Source of the DNA: a candidate division WOR-3 bacterium
GTDB lineage: Bacteria > SDB-A
Direction of reading: 5' to 3'
DNA length: 43,880 bases
Assembly (NCBI GenBank): GCA_016926475.1
Contig: JAFGON010000082.1
Coordinates: 1 to 43,880, forward strand
The translations under genes and the position numbers were made by a program. Positions 2,505 through 37,911 of this stretch are shown in pieces (the first letter of the stretch is position 1; the number at the start of each line of letters is the position of its first letter). The notes below the pieces were generated by a model. That model was not told where the DNA came from. It saw only the letters and a list, made by a program, of their open reading frames with translations, and ran no database searches.

Positions 2505-2912
2505 ATGAAAAATAAAGGTTTTTCTCTCATAGAACTGATGGTTGTTGTCGTGATCATAGGTATTCTTGCCGCTGTAGCTATACCGAATTTTGTAAGACTG
2601 CGCGACAGAGCCAAAGAAGCCGAAGTAAAGGCAAACGCCCACACATTACACCTTTCAGCGGAAGAATATTCAACTTCTTCTGACGGATTCTATATAGACG
2701 AAGCAAACATGGATTCTTTATCCATGTTACAAAGCCTTAAAAACCCTTTTAACCCCTCCGGCGCAGCATGGTCTCCGAACGCACCCTCAGAAGCTGGTTG
2801 TGTCAGCTACGATCACAATGGTTTTTCACCTTCGACTTACACTATAATCGGCGCTGGGAAAAATGGATCTTCTGATACAATAATATTGATAAATCCGGGT
2901 TTTGGAAGTTAA
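2505..2912 (+). CDS. Type IV pilin / pseudopilin
   Basis: The 135-residue protein has a short basic leader MKNKG, then the class III prepilin cleavage site before Phe (G|FSLIE). Glu sits at mature position 5, followed by a long hydrophobic helix (MVVVVIIGILAAVAIPNF) and the RLRDRAKEAEVKANAHT stretch of the type IVa pilin alpha-1 helix. The C-terminal globular domain is short. PilD-type peptidase would cleave and N-methylate it, and the product would polymerise into a pilus or type II-like pseudopilus. ATG at 2505 follows GGAGG at the proper distance; an ATG at 2493 lies before that site and is rejected. No other pilus gene is nearby, so the assembly machine is encoded elsewhere. The sigma-54-like promoter suggests tight regulation. 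Confidence 0.92.
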   Translation: MKNKGFSLIELMVVVVIIGILAAVAIPNFVRLRDRAKEAEVKANAHTLHLSAEEYSTSSDGFYIDEANMDSLSMLQSLKNPFNPSGAAWSPNAPSEAGCVSYDHNGFSPSTYTIIGAGKNGSSDTIILINPGFGS

Positions 2913-2915
2913 ATA

Positions 2916-2944
2916 TTGATTTTATGATATCAATCTGATATTTT
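2916..2944 (+). promoter_or_regulatory. Candidate sigma-70 promoter of the DUF401 gene
   Basis: TTGATT (2916-2921) and TATTTT (2939-2944) are separated by 17 bases. The expected transcription start at about 2951 leaves a leader of only two or three bases before ATG 2954, which has no Shine-Dalgarno. A small ATTGAT/ATCAAT dyad overlaps the -35 region. Confidence 0.35.
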
Positions 2945-2953
2945 CCAGCTTAT

Positions 2954-4201
2954 ATGTCCCTTTTAAAGATCTTTGCAGTTTTTCTGGCTATATTTGCCGT
3001 GTCGAAAATATTCAAGAAATGGATAGCTGTAGCCATATTTGCAGGAGCTTTGACCAGCGGAATATTTTTCGGAAAAGGTCTGCTGGGAACACTTGAGACT
3101 TTTCTTTTCGGTTCGGTATCACTCAACTCGGTTTTTCTGTCCCTTCTCGTCGCCCTGATAAGCGTCTTCAGCGGAATAATGGAAGAGACGGGAATCCTCG
3201 AGAAATGCAAAAAAGCTTCGGTCAGCGTTTTTTCATCGGGAAGAGCCGCAGGGGTTTTTATGGCTTCCCTCGTAGGTCTTTTACCCATGCCGGGGGGGGC
3301 TCTGTTCAGCGCTCCGCTTGTAAACTCGAGTATTGACGGCAAAAACCCACCCGGGCTTCTCACCGTTCTCAATTACTGGTTCAGACATGTATGGGAGTTT
3401 TGGTGGCCTCTTTATCCCGCAGTGATAACCCTATTGGCTGTAACCAAATTGAATATGTTCCAATGGATAGGCAAGACAATAGTTTTTTCCTTTCTGTCAT
3501 TTTTTGTAGGCTGGGTTTTCATATACAGAAAAGTCCAAACTTCAAAAAAGAAATCTTCCGGTTTCAAGATATCTAAAGACATGCTGACGGGTTTCGCCCC
3601 GCTGACCACGGTCATAGTTTTCGCTTTGGGCTACAAAACGGTTTTGTCTTTTTTCGGTATTGAATTACAGTCAGAAATTGTGATTATACCCGCGGTCCTC
3701 TGCGGCATTCTCGTATGTTTCAGGAGCTGGAAAAAAGGGTTGAGCTTGAAAAAATCGCTGAACCTTAGCAGAGTCATACCTCTGGCTATAATGATAATGA
3801 CCATAATGGGCTACAAGGAAGTTATAGAAAAGGCCGGCATCGCTCAATCCATTGCCCAGGATATCGGGAACATGAATTTTCCTGTGATGGTCGTGTTCAC
3901 TTTTTTGCCTTTTATATCCGGTCTTATAACTGGAATAGCGATAGGTTTTATAGGCGCGAGTTTCCCGCTGATAATTGACTTGCTCGAAGATTTCCCTCAG
4001 TATTCAAAGACAGCGATACTCGTGCTCGCTTTCGGTTTCGGATACGCCGGAATGATGCTGTCTCCTTTCCACGCCTGCATTCTGCTCTCCAAGGAATACT
4101 TCCGTTCGTCTTGGAAAGAAATCTACAAGTATCTCACCGGACCTGTTGTAGCCCTGACATCCGCTTTTGTTTTGTATTATTTTATATTTTCTCGATTTTG
4201 A
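2954..4201 (+). CDS. DUF401 family integral membrane protein
   Basis: This 415-residue, highly hydrophobic protein has roughly ten to twelve membrane segments. It carries the family's recognisable motifs: LLPMPGGALFSAPLV (about residues 109-123), NYWFRHVWEFWWPLYPAVI (about 139-157), and a late GFGYAGMMLSPFHACILLSKEYF. DUF401 proteins are distant relatives of the gluconate/citrate ion-transporter superfamily; the substrate is unknown. ATG 2954 starts directly at a hydrophobic helix and lacks a Shine-Dalgarno, in line with the near-leaderless promoter just upstream. It appears to be a single-gene unit: a small terminator-like hairpin and a new promoter follow. Function beyond transport is not claimed. 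Confidence 0.85.
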   Translation: MSLLKIFAVFLAIFAVSKIFKKWIAVAIFAGALTSGIFFGKGLLGTLETFLFGSVSLNSVFLSLLVALISVFSGIMEETGILEKCKKASVSVFSSGRAAGVFMASLVGLLPMPGGALFSAPLVNSSIDGKNPPGLLTVLNYWFRHVWEFWWPLYPAVITLLAVTKLNMFQWIGKTIVFSFLSFFVGWVFIYRKVQTSKKKSSGFKISKDMLTGFAPLTTVIVFALGYKTVLSFFGIELQSEIVIIPAVLCGILVCFRSWKKGLSLKKSLNLSRVIPLAIMIMTIMGYKEVIEKAGIAQSIAQDIGNMNFPVMVVFTFLPFISGLITGIAIGFIGASFPLIIDLLEDFPQYSKTAILVLAFGFGYAGMMLSPFHACILLSKEYFRSSWKEIYKYLTGPVVALTSAFVLYYFIFSRF

Positions 4202-34382: not shown

Positions 34383-35210
34383 CTATTTTCTGAGACACCA
34401 ATCGACGGCATGTTTCATCATGTCCCAGTCCGAACCTCTGTCGTCGAATTCCTTGAAGGCGTCTATACCGTCCCTGTCGCTGTCTTCCTCCCATTCTGGA
34501 TGAGGACCTGTCAGGAATACTCTTCCTTTTCCGTATTCACAGACGATAATAGCCGGTCTGTTTATCAGCGAATATTTTCCAGCAATAAAAGTATTTTGAC
34601 CGGACGAAGTGTCAGGTGCAAAGTATGGACCGTTGTAGAACATCATCCATGCAGTATCCTCACACGAAGAGGTTATCGGATGAGAAATGTCCATGTCTAT
34701 CCTGCACATCCCTATCTCGGGATAAGCGAATATTTCCGGGTTGGGCCCGTATCCAGTCCCCTTGAATAGTCCGAGCTGTCCTGTTTTAATTTCCCTGCCT
34801 TCCCAGACCTGTATTTCACATGCAAAAAGCGCTCCGGCGCATGTACCTATGTAGCCGCACCCTCCATAAACTGATTTTTTCAGAATTTCTTTCCCTTTAT
34901 TGTCAATATCCTTTAGATAAGGCGATGAGGAACCTCCGGGAAAATAAAAAAGGTCTATGTCGGACACCAACGATCTGTTAATGTCGTCTGCGTATATCCT
35001 TTTTGTTTCATAACCCATCCAGCGGAACATATTTTCGGCGGGTATAACACAACCCTGGGCTGCTCCATCTCCTGCGTATATCCCCACAATCGTCCTGGCG
35101 TCATTTTTCGAATTGACGGTTTCTCTTATGAAACAACCGAAGTTGCACAACGAGCAAATGAGTAAGGAGATGATCGAGACCAGATTTATCTTGATATCAC
35201 GATTGATCAT
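34383..35210 (-). CDS. Exported BPL_N-type (class I glutamine amidotransferase-like) protein
   Basis: The 275-residue protein has an N-terminal hydrophobic export signal (residues about 8-25) with Cys residues that could be a lipidation site. A class I amidotransferase-like fold resembling the biotin-protein-ligase N-terminal (BPL_N) family follows. Visible elements are TIVGIYAGDGAAQGC, DLFYFPGGSSSPY, the nucleophile elbow GYIGTCAGALFACE, and a late GPHPEWEED that supplies His and Glu. The Cys-His-Glu triad therefore looks intact. BPL_N proteins act on unknown substrates, and an exported form is unusual. The start overlaps the stop of the HEEGH gene (ATGA), so the two are probably translated together. 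Confidence 0.75.
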   Translation of the reverse strand: MINRDIKINLVSIISLLICSLCNFGCFIRETVNSKNDARTIVGIYAGDGAAQGCVIPAENMFRWMGYETKRIYADDINRSLVSDIDLFYFPGGSSSPYLKDIDNKGKEILKKSVYGGCGYIGTCAGALFACEIQVWEGREIKTGQLGLFKGTGYGPNPEIFAYPEIGMCRIDMDISHPITSSCEDTAWMMFYNGPYFAPDTSSGQNTFIAGKYSLINRPAIIVCEYGKGRVFLTGPHPEWEEDSDRDGIDAFKEFDDRGSDWDMMKHAVDWCLRK

Positions 35211-36628
35211 TTTACCGTGACCGAAAACCCTGCCCTTGTCTGAAGAGCAGGTTCCAGATAGACGTTTCCTGCAAGCCAGCCCTCAGTTTTTATATCGCAT
35301 TCAGTGAAAACCTCAAACCAGTCTCTGACATGGCAAACAACTCCGAGCATTACGGATCCGCCTGCCTGCGCACTTTCTGATAAAAACCTCTGATCAGTGG
35401 GTTGAAGCCATAAGGAAGCAGTTGATGAGAATGAAAAATTCATCCCTCTTAAAATAACAGGGTACCTGTACAGTTCCAAAGAAAAGCCCGGGCAGAATGT
35501 TCTCTTTGATGCGTAGCCCAACAATGAAAGGACAATGTCAAATTTTCCTTGCTGGTAGAAAAAATGCAGCCCTGTCGCGGTTCCGAATGACGTCAGGTGG
35601 TGGGTAACCGCTAAGTTCCAATAAAATTTATTTTTGTTGAAAGGGCTTGTTCCTGCAAATCTGTCTATGCCGAAGATCTGGGGTGAAATGAAATTCAGCA
35701 ATATCAACCGGTTTTGAAGTCTTAGATACCCCAGTTCTTCGTCTGAAAGCTCCGAAGGCATGATGTAACGGTCTATTCCTTTCCCGGAGGGGTGGGGTCT
35801 GCCTCTCAGGCCAGAAAGGTACGGTTCATCCGGACGAAAAAGATCATACACCCATGAAAGGTAATCACCACCGATGATGTCCCTTTTCATGATATCCGTG
35901 TCTTCTTTCAGCGTCTCTTCTTCGATTATTCTGTTTGCCATATCACTGCCGCACAACCAGACATACCATGCAAGGTTTCCAAGGTTGATCCAGATATCCG
36001 TAACATCGTAAATTGTTGACCTGCCACCAAAAAAATTTTGTTTTCTCATTTGCATTGACAATTCAATTTGAACTTCGCCCCCGGCTTCGGCGAGCCTGAC
36101 CATGTCCTCTGGAAATTCGTCCTTAAGCCGAATAAGGTCCTCGTCACGAACATGGCTGACACTGACCATTTCTGCGAAAGGATTGAGGTAAATATCGTTT
36201 TGGCTGGATATTCCCCTCATGGAAAGCACTGCTCTGTGACCTTCTTCATGAGTCCAGCCTTTGAAAGGTGAAAAGATGTCGAACAGGGTTATGGATATGC
36301 ATAACCCGGCAAACCTCCTGTTAGAAAAAAGAGAAACAAATTTTTTGTCTGAAAGGTCGGGAGACCACAGTAGTTTCAATGATTGATGAACACCCTGTGT
36401 TAATCCGCTTGTCAACGCAATTGACTGGTTCATGCTTGAGAATGAAAAGCCGTTCTCGGTGTTGAACGGAAAATCGCAAACGGGAAATCGCATTATGACG
36501 CTCGGTCGTTGATTGGAGTTGAATTCTGAAGCTGTTGAACCCTGATGGATCTGGCCGGAAAGGGACAGGCATTGAAGGAATGATGCCGCGGAAAAAAAAA
36601 GTTTTAAAAATTTCCCGGCAGGTTTTAT
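35207..36628 (-). CDS. Secreted HEEGH zincin-like protein with beta-rich C-terminus; probable AUA start
   Basis: From an ATA codon at 36628-36626 the frame encodes 473 residues. It starts with a convincing signal peptide (basic KPAGKFLK, hydrophobic core, LSLSG|Q) that is lost if the first in-frame ATG (36493) is used. GGAGG lies five bases before the ATA; no ATG, GTG or TTG occurs between. HEEGH at residues 127-131 fits the HExxH zinc-peptidase motif, and the Glu residues in AEAGGE (about 181-185) could supply a third ligand. The C-terminal 200 residues alternate polar and aromatic residues like an outer-membrane beta barrel. A periplasmic or outer-membrane metallopeptidase is inferred. It is coupled to the BPL_N gene by ATGA. 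Confidence 0.6.
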   Translation of the reverse strand: MKPAGKFLKLFFSAASFLQCLSLSGQIHQGSTASEFNSNQRPSVIMRFPVCDFPFNTENGFSFSSMNQSIALTSGLTQGVHQSLKLLWSPDLSDKKFVSLFSNRRFAGLCISITLFDIFSPFKGWTHEEGHRAVLSMRGISSQNDIYLNPFAEMVSVSHVRDEDLIRLKDEFPEDMVRLAEAGGEVQIELSMQMRKQNFFGGRSTIYDVTDIWINLGNLAWYVWLCGSDMANRIIEEETLKEDTDIMKRDIIGGDYLSWVYDLFRPDEPYLSGLRGRPHPSGKGIDRYIMPSELSDEELGYLRLQNRLILLNFISPQIFGIDRFAGTSPFNKNKFYWNLAVTHHLTSFGTATGLHFFYQQGKFDIVLSLLGYASKRTFCPGFSLELYRYPVILRGMNFSFSSTASLWLQPTDQRFLSESAQAGGSVMLGVVCHVRDWFEVFTECDIKTEGWLAGNVYLEPALQTRAGFSVTVK

Positions 36629-36673
36629 GTTTTCCTCCTTGCACTTGTTGCTGGTGAGAATATTTCGTTATGC

Positions 36674-36702
36674 AGTATACATTTTCGCGTATAATCTGAA
36701 AA
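36674..36702 (-). promoter_or_regulatory. Promoter of the HEEGH-BPL_N operon
   Basis: On the minus strand TTTTCA (36702-36697) and TATACT (36679-36674) are separated by exactly 17 bases. Transcription from about 36667 would give a leader of about 40 bases carrying AAGGAGG before the ATA start. Confidence 0.5.
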
Positions 36703-36979: not shown

Positions 36980-37537
36980 TCATGCGCGGGTTGAAAAAAA
37001 TCTTAGTATCAACACGACAAAAAACATATCGCAGATAGCTCCGGCGGAAAAAAAAGACGCGGTTACTATCCGTGCCGCTTTGAGGTTTATTCTATTGCCT
37101 GAAAAATCGATGATTTGCTTGACGCCGTATGCCATACCGGCGGCGAGAATTCCGGGGGCGTGTCCAATCATAAAATCACCACTGAATTCATTTTCTAAGA
37201 GAAAGCGGCCATAGAAAAAAGTATATGACATGACCGCGAGAATAAATACCGAGCCTTGAATCGGAAGAAGGACATTCCGCGCTCCGTTTTTTAGAAATAG
37301 CCCCAATACTCCAGCGAAAAGCGGGATTCCGAGAATGATCTGAGTTGTCCAAATTCTGTCAAGCCCTTCTGAAATTACTGGGATTCTGATGAGTTTTAAC
37401 ATTATTCCCGAAACCACAAGTATAAATCCAATAAACGTGTTAATCCTGAAACAGGCTATTTTGTCGAGCTTTTCAGTCGAGAAAAGAAGGTTAAAAGTAA
37501 CGCCGTTTATGAATAATCTGCCGTTAAAAGGCTTCAA
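36980..37537 (-). CDS. Small multi-pass membrane protein, function unknown
   Basis: The 185-residue hydrophobic protein has about five predicted helices (INTFIGFILVVSGIMLKLI, TTQIILGIPLFAGVLGLFL, VLLPIQGSVFILAVMSYTFF, MIGHAPGILAAGMAYGV, IVTASFFSAGAICDMFFVVLIL). No family is recognised. The start is TTG 37537, overlapping the TGA of the deaminase gene (TTGA), with AGGTGG just upstream; a longer reading from 37576 lies in the deaminase gene and adds only non-hydrophobic residues. It is the last gene of the four-gene unit from 39405. Coupling to the deaminase suggests a membrane partner, but this is not shown. Confidence 0.6.
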   Translation of the reverse strand: MKPFNGRLFINGVTFNLLFSTEKLDKIACFRINTFIGFILVVSGIMLKLIRIPVISEGLDRIWTTQIILGIPLFAGVLGLFLKNGARNVLLPIQGSVFILAVMSYTFFYGRFLLENEFSGDFMIGHAPGILAAGMAYGVKQIIDFSGNRINLKAARIVTASFFSAGAICDMFFVVLILRFFSTRA

Positions 37538-37911
37538 ATCCACCTGTCCGGAAGAAGGTCTTCGAGAAAAACACATTTGTCTTTTGCGAGTAAAACCCTG
37601 GTCTTGAGGTTATTTTTGTCTATTTGAAAGATTAATTCTCGGCATCTTCCGCAAGGCGGAATAACTCCGTTTTTATTGACGGCGACTATCGTTTCTATTT
37701 GTGTCTCCCTTTTTTTCAGCATTTCGGCTATTGCCGAATGCTCCGCGCAAAAACCGATGCCGCATGACAGATCCAAGCAGATGCCTGTGTAGATGTTCCC
37801 GTTTTTGGTCTCCAAATCTGCGGCAACCGATCCAGCGGAGAGAAAATCCTCCGACAGCCTGAATTCACCCAAAGATTTTTGGGCTTCAACAATAAGTTCA
37901 TCCTCTTTCAT
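37534..37911 (-). CDS. cdd: Cytidine deaminase
   Basis: This 125-residue zinc-dependent deaminase has the catalytic FCAEHSAI motif (Cys ligand and proton-shuttling Glu, near residues 54-61) and PCGRCREL with the two other zinc cysteines (near 86-93). Its length is that of tetrameric homologues. It converts cytidine or deoxycytidine to uridine forms; the blasticidin-S deaminase branch has a similar motif and cannot be excluded by eye. It lies seven bases after the secreted 256-residue gene, with a weak ribosome site, and is coupled by TTGA to the membrane protein gene. Confidence 0.9.
   Translation of the reverse strand: MKEDELIVEAQKSLGEFRLSEDFLSAGSVAADLETKNGNIYTGICLDLSCGIGFCAEHSAIAEMLKKRETQIETIVAVNKNGVIPPCGRCRELIFQIDKNNLKTRVLLAKDKCVFLEDLLPDRWI

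Follow-up and report, generated by a model that had tools for sequence, protein, structure and literature searches.

Initiation at AUA has been described in Staphylococcus aureus, where infC, ccpN and citZ start at this codon and extended Shine-Dalgarno motifs are noted for infC and ccpN (PMC13009471). In reporter constructs, the AUA starts of ccpN and citZ gave about 10% of the activity obtained with AUG, a value that rose to as much as 30% when ccpN was assayed in rich medium (PMC13009471). Other non-canonical codons open infC, which starts at AUU in E. coli and at ATC in Streptomyces and is autoregulated by IF3; IF3 represses such starts in both organisms, and the GTC start of Streptomyces sigR, shared between species and confirmed to matter by mutation, is likewise repressed (PMC5472188). 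More generally, AUG starts are kept by selection, and GUG and UUG starts tend to be offset by a stronger Shine-Dalgarno sequence (PMC5622118). Here we analyze a gene for a putative exported protein with an HEEGH motif (HEEGH protein), which probably starts at AUA, in a 43,880-nt stretch (the window) of a candidate division WOR-3 bacterium (GCA_016926475.1, contig JAFGON010000082.1, forward-strand positions).

Results

Site and reading frame

The HEEGH gene lies on the minus strand, where AAGGAGG (36640–36634) is followed by a 5-nt spacer, AAACA, and by ATA (36628–36626), exactly the arrangement that the initial annotation had described. Features of the locus are as follows.

34383–35210, minus strand: BPL_N-like gene; its ATG overlaps the HEEGH stop codon as ATGA (35210–35207), an overlap kept in the same-genus genome G001
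35207–36628, minus strand: HEEGH gene read from ATA, 473 amino acids, with a predicted helical HExxH-type domain and a predicted C-terminal beta-barrel
36236–36250, minus strand: HEEGH motif (HExxH type), H-E-E-x-H being invariant in 16 homologues
36491–36493, minus strand: ATG at codon 46, the expected choice of gene callers; not conserved in relatives
36554–36628 (end approximate), minus strand: signal-peptide coding region; homologues carry signal peptides at the same place
36592–36600, minus strand: T9 run within the signal peptide, a possible slippage or indel site; the frame across it agrees with the ATA start
36626–36628, minus strand: probable start codon ATA, separated from AAGGAGG by 5 nt
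36634–36640, minus strand: Shine-Dalgarno sequence AAGGAGG at one of the commonest spacings (4–5 nt) in this genome
36668–36670, minus strand: in-frame TAA upstream of ATA, which closes the frame
36674–36702, minus strand: weak promoter-like TTTTCA-17-TATACT, not above chance

Read from ATA, the frame comprises 473 codons and stays open to the stop at 35209–35207. Between the upstream TAA (36670–36668) and ATG 36493, it contains no ATG, GTG or TTG, so that ATG 36493, 45 codons on, is the first canonical start, as had been claimed. The N-terminus encoded from ATA, IKPAGKFLKLFFSAASFLQCLSLSGQ, carries a charge of +3 and a hydrophobic core, which agrees with the proposed signal peptide. A promoter with 17-bp spacing had also been proposed; the site is present, but its quality is that of chance (2 found versus 1.3 ± 1.2 expected), and it counts as weak evidence. 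Part of the Shine-Dalgarno sequence falls within a predicted weak hairpin, which could lower HEEGH translation further, a point against the use of AUA.

Shine-Dalgarno context in this genome

Statistics were drawn from genome-wide pattern searches and from a sample of 40 stretches plus the window, 828 kb in all or about 39% of the genome. Ribosome binding in this genome makes use of AAGGAGG as a Shine-Dalgarno sequence: genome-wide, AAGGAGG-N4-9-ATG occurs at 123 sites compared with 37 for a reversed-pattern control, and spacings of 4–5 nt are commonest, making the 5 nt of the HEEGH gene usual. The corresponding pattern with ATA is not enriched genome-wide (41 sites versus 63 for the reversed-pattern control); the pair alone therefore means nothing, and its enrichment was dropped as a proof of AUA use. 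When 31 AAGGAGG–ATA sites were read individually (30 loci and that of the window), only the one in the window opened a long frame lacking a canonical start. From the density of AAGGAGG (9.4e-5 per base) and the proportion of near-cognate codons among triplets (7.3%), the chance of finding AAGGAGG within 30 nt of a signal peptide together with an in-phase near-cognate codon is ~2e-4 per given gene, a rough estimate obtained as a product. Within the 828 kb, 230 Shine-Dalgarno sites lead to a canonical start, and just two long and clearly genuine genes, lon and the HEEGH gene, have a near-cognate codon but lack a canonical start, placing non-canonical starts at about 1% of Shine-Dalgarno-led genes. 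In the HEEGH gene, the Shine-Dalgarno match is extended and usually spaced, and no in-frame ATG, GTG or TTG is available for the homologue-supported N-terminus.

Homologues and the N-terminus

The window protein was compared with 15 homologues from the same genus, another MAG and more distant bacteria. Closest are those of the same-genus genomes G001 (73% identity, L002) and G002 (76%, L003; its contig is also listed under L005, from a candidate division WOR-3 MAG), followed at about 60% by that of MAG Zod_Metabat.1270 (L006), from the same sampling series. Nearly all 15 have a canonical start (ATG, GTG or TTG) and a signal-like N-terminus at the position of the window's ATA frame; the N-terminus of L009 is ambiguous, and the exact start in L007 and L015 is a choice among several. 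Orthologues that clearly start downstream and lack a signal peptide, the result named beforehand as refuting, were not found in this set. In addition, the RP[SY]xI motif directly upstream of ATG 36493 is conserved in G001 and G002, both of which have no ATG at that codon. Judged from these homologues, the N-terminus upstream of ATG 36493 is real.

None of the relatives has ATA at the HEEGH start, and the codon is accordingly not conserved; G001, G002 and L006 begin with ATG. Canonical starts in all readable relatives suggest an AUG to AUA change in this lineage. The genus-level ancestral start is uncertain, since the start contexts of G001 and G002 are secondary, their HEEGH genes being fused to a truncated cytidine deaminase with the gene at 36980–37576 missing.

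The region upstream is rearranged in both genomes. G001 and G002 lack the gene at window 36980–37576, and their upstream cytidine deaminase gene is truncated at different points (window 36980–37911; L002 about 2900–3050; L003 about 1045–1340). The HEEGH start overlaps or abuts the stop of the deaminase remnant, to which the HEEGH genes are fused. The two genomes have thus been rearranged independently at one and the same site. The AAAAC-ATG of G001 was considered as a homologue of AAAAC-ATA in the window and dropped, because it aligns in part with the truncated deaminase.

Protein family and predicted fold

In an AlphaFold model (mean pLDDT 84), a helix at the N-terminus is followed by a helical domain that carries the invariant HEExH motif; the C-terminal part forms eight or nine strands, mostly long ones. 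Foldseek returned outer-membrane porin barrels as best matches, with weak E-values. H127-E128-E129-x-H131 is invariant in 16/16 homologues, as expected of an HExxH metallopeptidase; the protein matches no Pfam or NCBIfam model and was assigned to no peptidase family or fold. The model predicts a C-terminal outer-membrane-type beta-barrel that would need export, which makes a start at ATG 36493 unlikely. Members of this family, which has no Pfam or NCBIfam model, occur in MAGs labelled WOR-3, Gemmatimonadetes, Sorangium/Polyangiaceae, Bdellovibrionales, Gallionellaceae and Cytophagaceae.

Other non-AUG starts in the same genome

Two further genes of this genome (G000) probably use non-AUG starts. 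infC, located through PF00707, has no canonical start and follows the thrS stop as AAGGAGG-TCATT-ATC, with ATC/ATT as its start (C55:20063–20077; L049, L068). The same 5-nt spacing recurs in the relatives G002 (AAGGAGG-TAGCT-ATT, L053) and G003 (AAGGAGG-GAATA-ATT, L052); no infC match was found in G001. This infC is likely subject to IF3 autoregulation of the E. coli type. lon appears to begin with CTG, 6 nt behind AAGGAG(G), in four genomes of the family (G000:C10:28464, at 8464 in L106 and also in L109; G001, L110; G002, L111; G003, L112), and its next canonical start in G000 lies 23 codons on, within the conserved region. Although deduced from sequence, infC (ATC/ATT) and lon (CTG) are both strong cases, as the non-canonical codon is conserved in relatives.

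An AAGGAGG-ATY scan for more such starts singled out only infC and a gene for a C39-like exported peptidase (G000:C3:21037; L054, L083), read as AAAAAAAGGAGG-TCAATC-ATT with ATT 6 nt behind the motif and ATG in relatives. This may be a further non-AUG start, with a TTG three codons on as the alternative. Of the other sampled candidates for a frame lacking a canonical start, L099 and L103 contain an ATG further downstream that could plausibly serve, and L096 is ambiguous.

Discussion

We consider it probable that the HEEGH gene is intact and starts at AUA (36628–36626), and that weaker, IF3-disfavoured initiation keeps both the HEEGH and the BPL_N-like protein low. The full AAGGAGG at the genome's usual spacing would position the ribosome on AUA, where initiator fMet-tRNA would pair despite the third-base mismatch. 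Such initiation should be weaker than at AUG, and IF3 is expected to act against it, so that the level of the exported HExxH-type beta-barrel protein would be low. Translation of the BPL_N-like gene would be coupled to that of the HEEGH gene through the ATGA stop-start overlap, which is also present in G001. Site, frame, homologous N-termini and overlap are read directly from the sequence; use of AUA, lower yield, IF3 sensitivity and coupling are what we infer for the HEEGH gene. The original proposal that AUA is used and lowers operon expression thus gains support from the homologues' signal peptides, the Shine-Dalgarno context, the probable non-AUG starts of infC and lon, and the published AUA starts.

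Among the rival readings, a start at ATG 36493, giving an HEEGH protein without signal peptide, appears very improbable. It is the first canonical in-frame start and the one that gene callers would choose, but it would leave AAGGAGG unused and a barrel protein stranded in the cytoplasm; homologues carry signal peptides, and the first beta-strand of the model and the conserved RP[SY]xI lie across or before that codon. Nine-T runs are known slippage sites, and in the +1 frame a stretch of 107 codons that spans the T9 run begins at GTG 36644. Translation from this GTG with a shift at T9, or after correction of a wrong T9 length in the assembly, seems just as remote: the codon precedes the Shine-Dalgarno sequence and is not itself preceded by one, whereas the ATA frame crosses T9 uncorrected and yields a good signal peptide. 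That ATA itself reflects a mistake in the consensus or assembly, or a variant carried by a minority while most cells have a canonical start, is unlikely. The genome was assembled into 106 contigs and almost all homologues carry a canonical start; however, a chance single-base error at exactly that base would be rare, whereas in the sampled 828 kb non-canonical starts make up about 1% of Shine-Dalgarno-led genes (lon and the HEEGH gene beside 230 sites with a canonical start).

The initial annotation had also offered a recent mutation from ATG in a gene on its way to loss. No relative has ATA, and the region is unstable: in relatives the 5' ends are rearranged, and the neighbouring gene is either broken or missing. 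The coding sequence nevertheless gives decay no support, and we regard it as quite unlikely: 473 codons are free of stops, the HExxH motif and other invariant residues are kept, and the strong Shine-Dalgarno sequence is retained. dN/dS to G002 is 0.056 (omega about 0.06), indicating purifying selection, and amino-acid relative rates with L006 as outgroup are equal (Tajima counts against G001 of 25:24 on shared columns and 39:31 over the full length). Because dS is saturated for most pairs, these tests use dN, amino-acid relative rates and, for G002 only, omega; saturation of dS to G001 means that a very recent change, and hence a very recent loss, would escape them.

The AUA start described here is best regarded as probably real and as belonging to a class already described, not to a new one. 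If this reading is correct, an uncultured lineage gains a sequence-supported AUA start, and gene callers would be removing the signal peptide from the HEEGH family protein in this species. Together with the conserved lon CUG and infC AUU/AUC, it would argue for non-AUG starts behind a full Shine-Dalgarno sequence being systematically overlooked in such genomes. A broader, speculative and rather unlikely extension is an IF3-tuned group behind AAGGAGG, comprising infC (AUU/AUC), lon (CUG), the HEEGH gene (AUA) and perhaps the C39-like gene (AUU), in which the IF3 level would set proteolysis and envelope functions jointly.

Compared with the known systems, the HEEGH gene most resembles the S. aureus AUA genes, sharing with infC, ccpN and citZ the codon and, as we deduce for it here, a reduced output, and with infC and ccpN the extended Shine-Dalgarno sequence. 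Restriction of its AUA to one genome among relatives parallels citZ, whose AUA is limited to one strain lineage. The S. aureus starts were shown by ribosome profiling or reporters and that of ccpN is conserved, whereas the HEEGH AUA is deduced from sequence and unconserved. Like Streptomyces sigR, it stands first in a two-gene unit and has a rare non-canonical start that bears on dosage, although the sigR codon is GTC, conserved and mutation-tested. Likeness to infC AUU/AUC lies in the AUH codon and the expected IF3 sensitivity, and the infC of this genome itself belongs to that type; the HEEGH gene does not encode a translation factor, however, and so no feedback loop is implied. Finally, the full AAGGAGG before the HEEGH AUA fits the tendency of weaker starts to have stronger Shine-Dalgarno sequences (PMC5622118).
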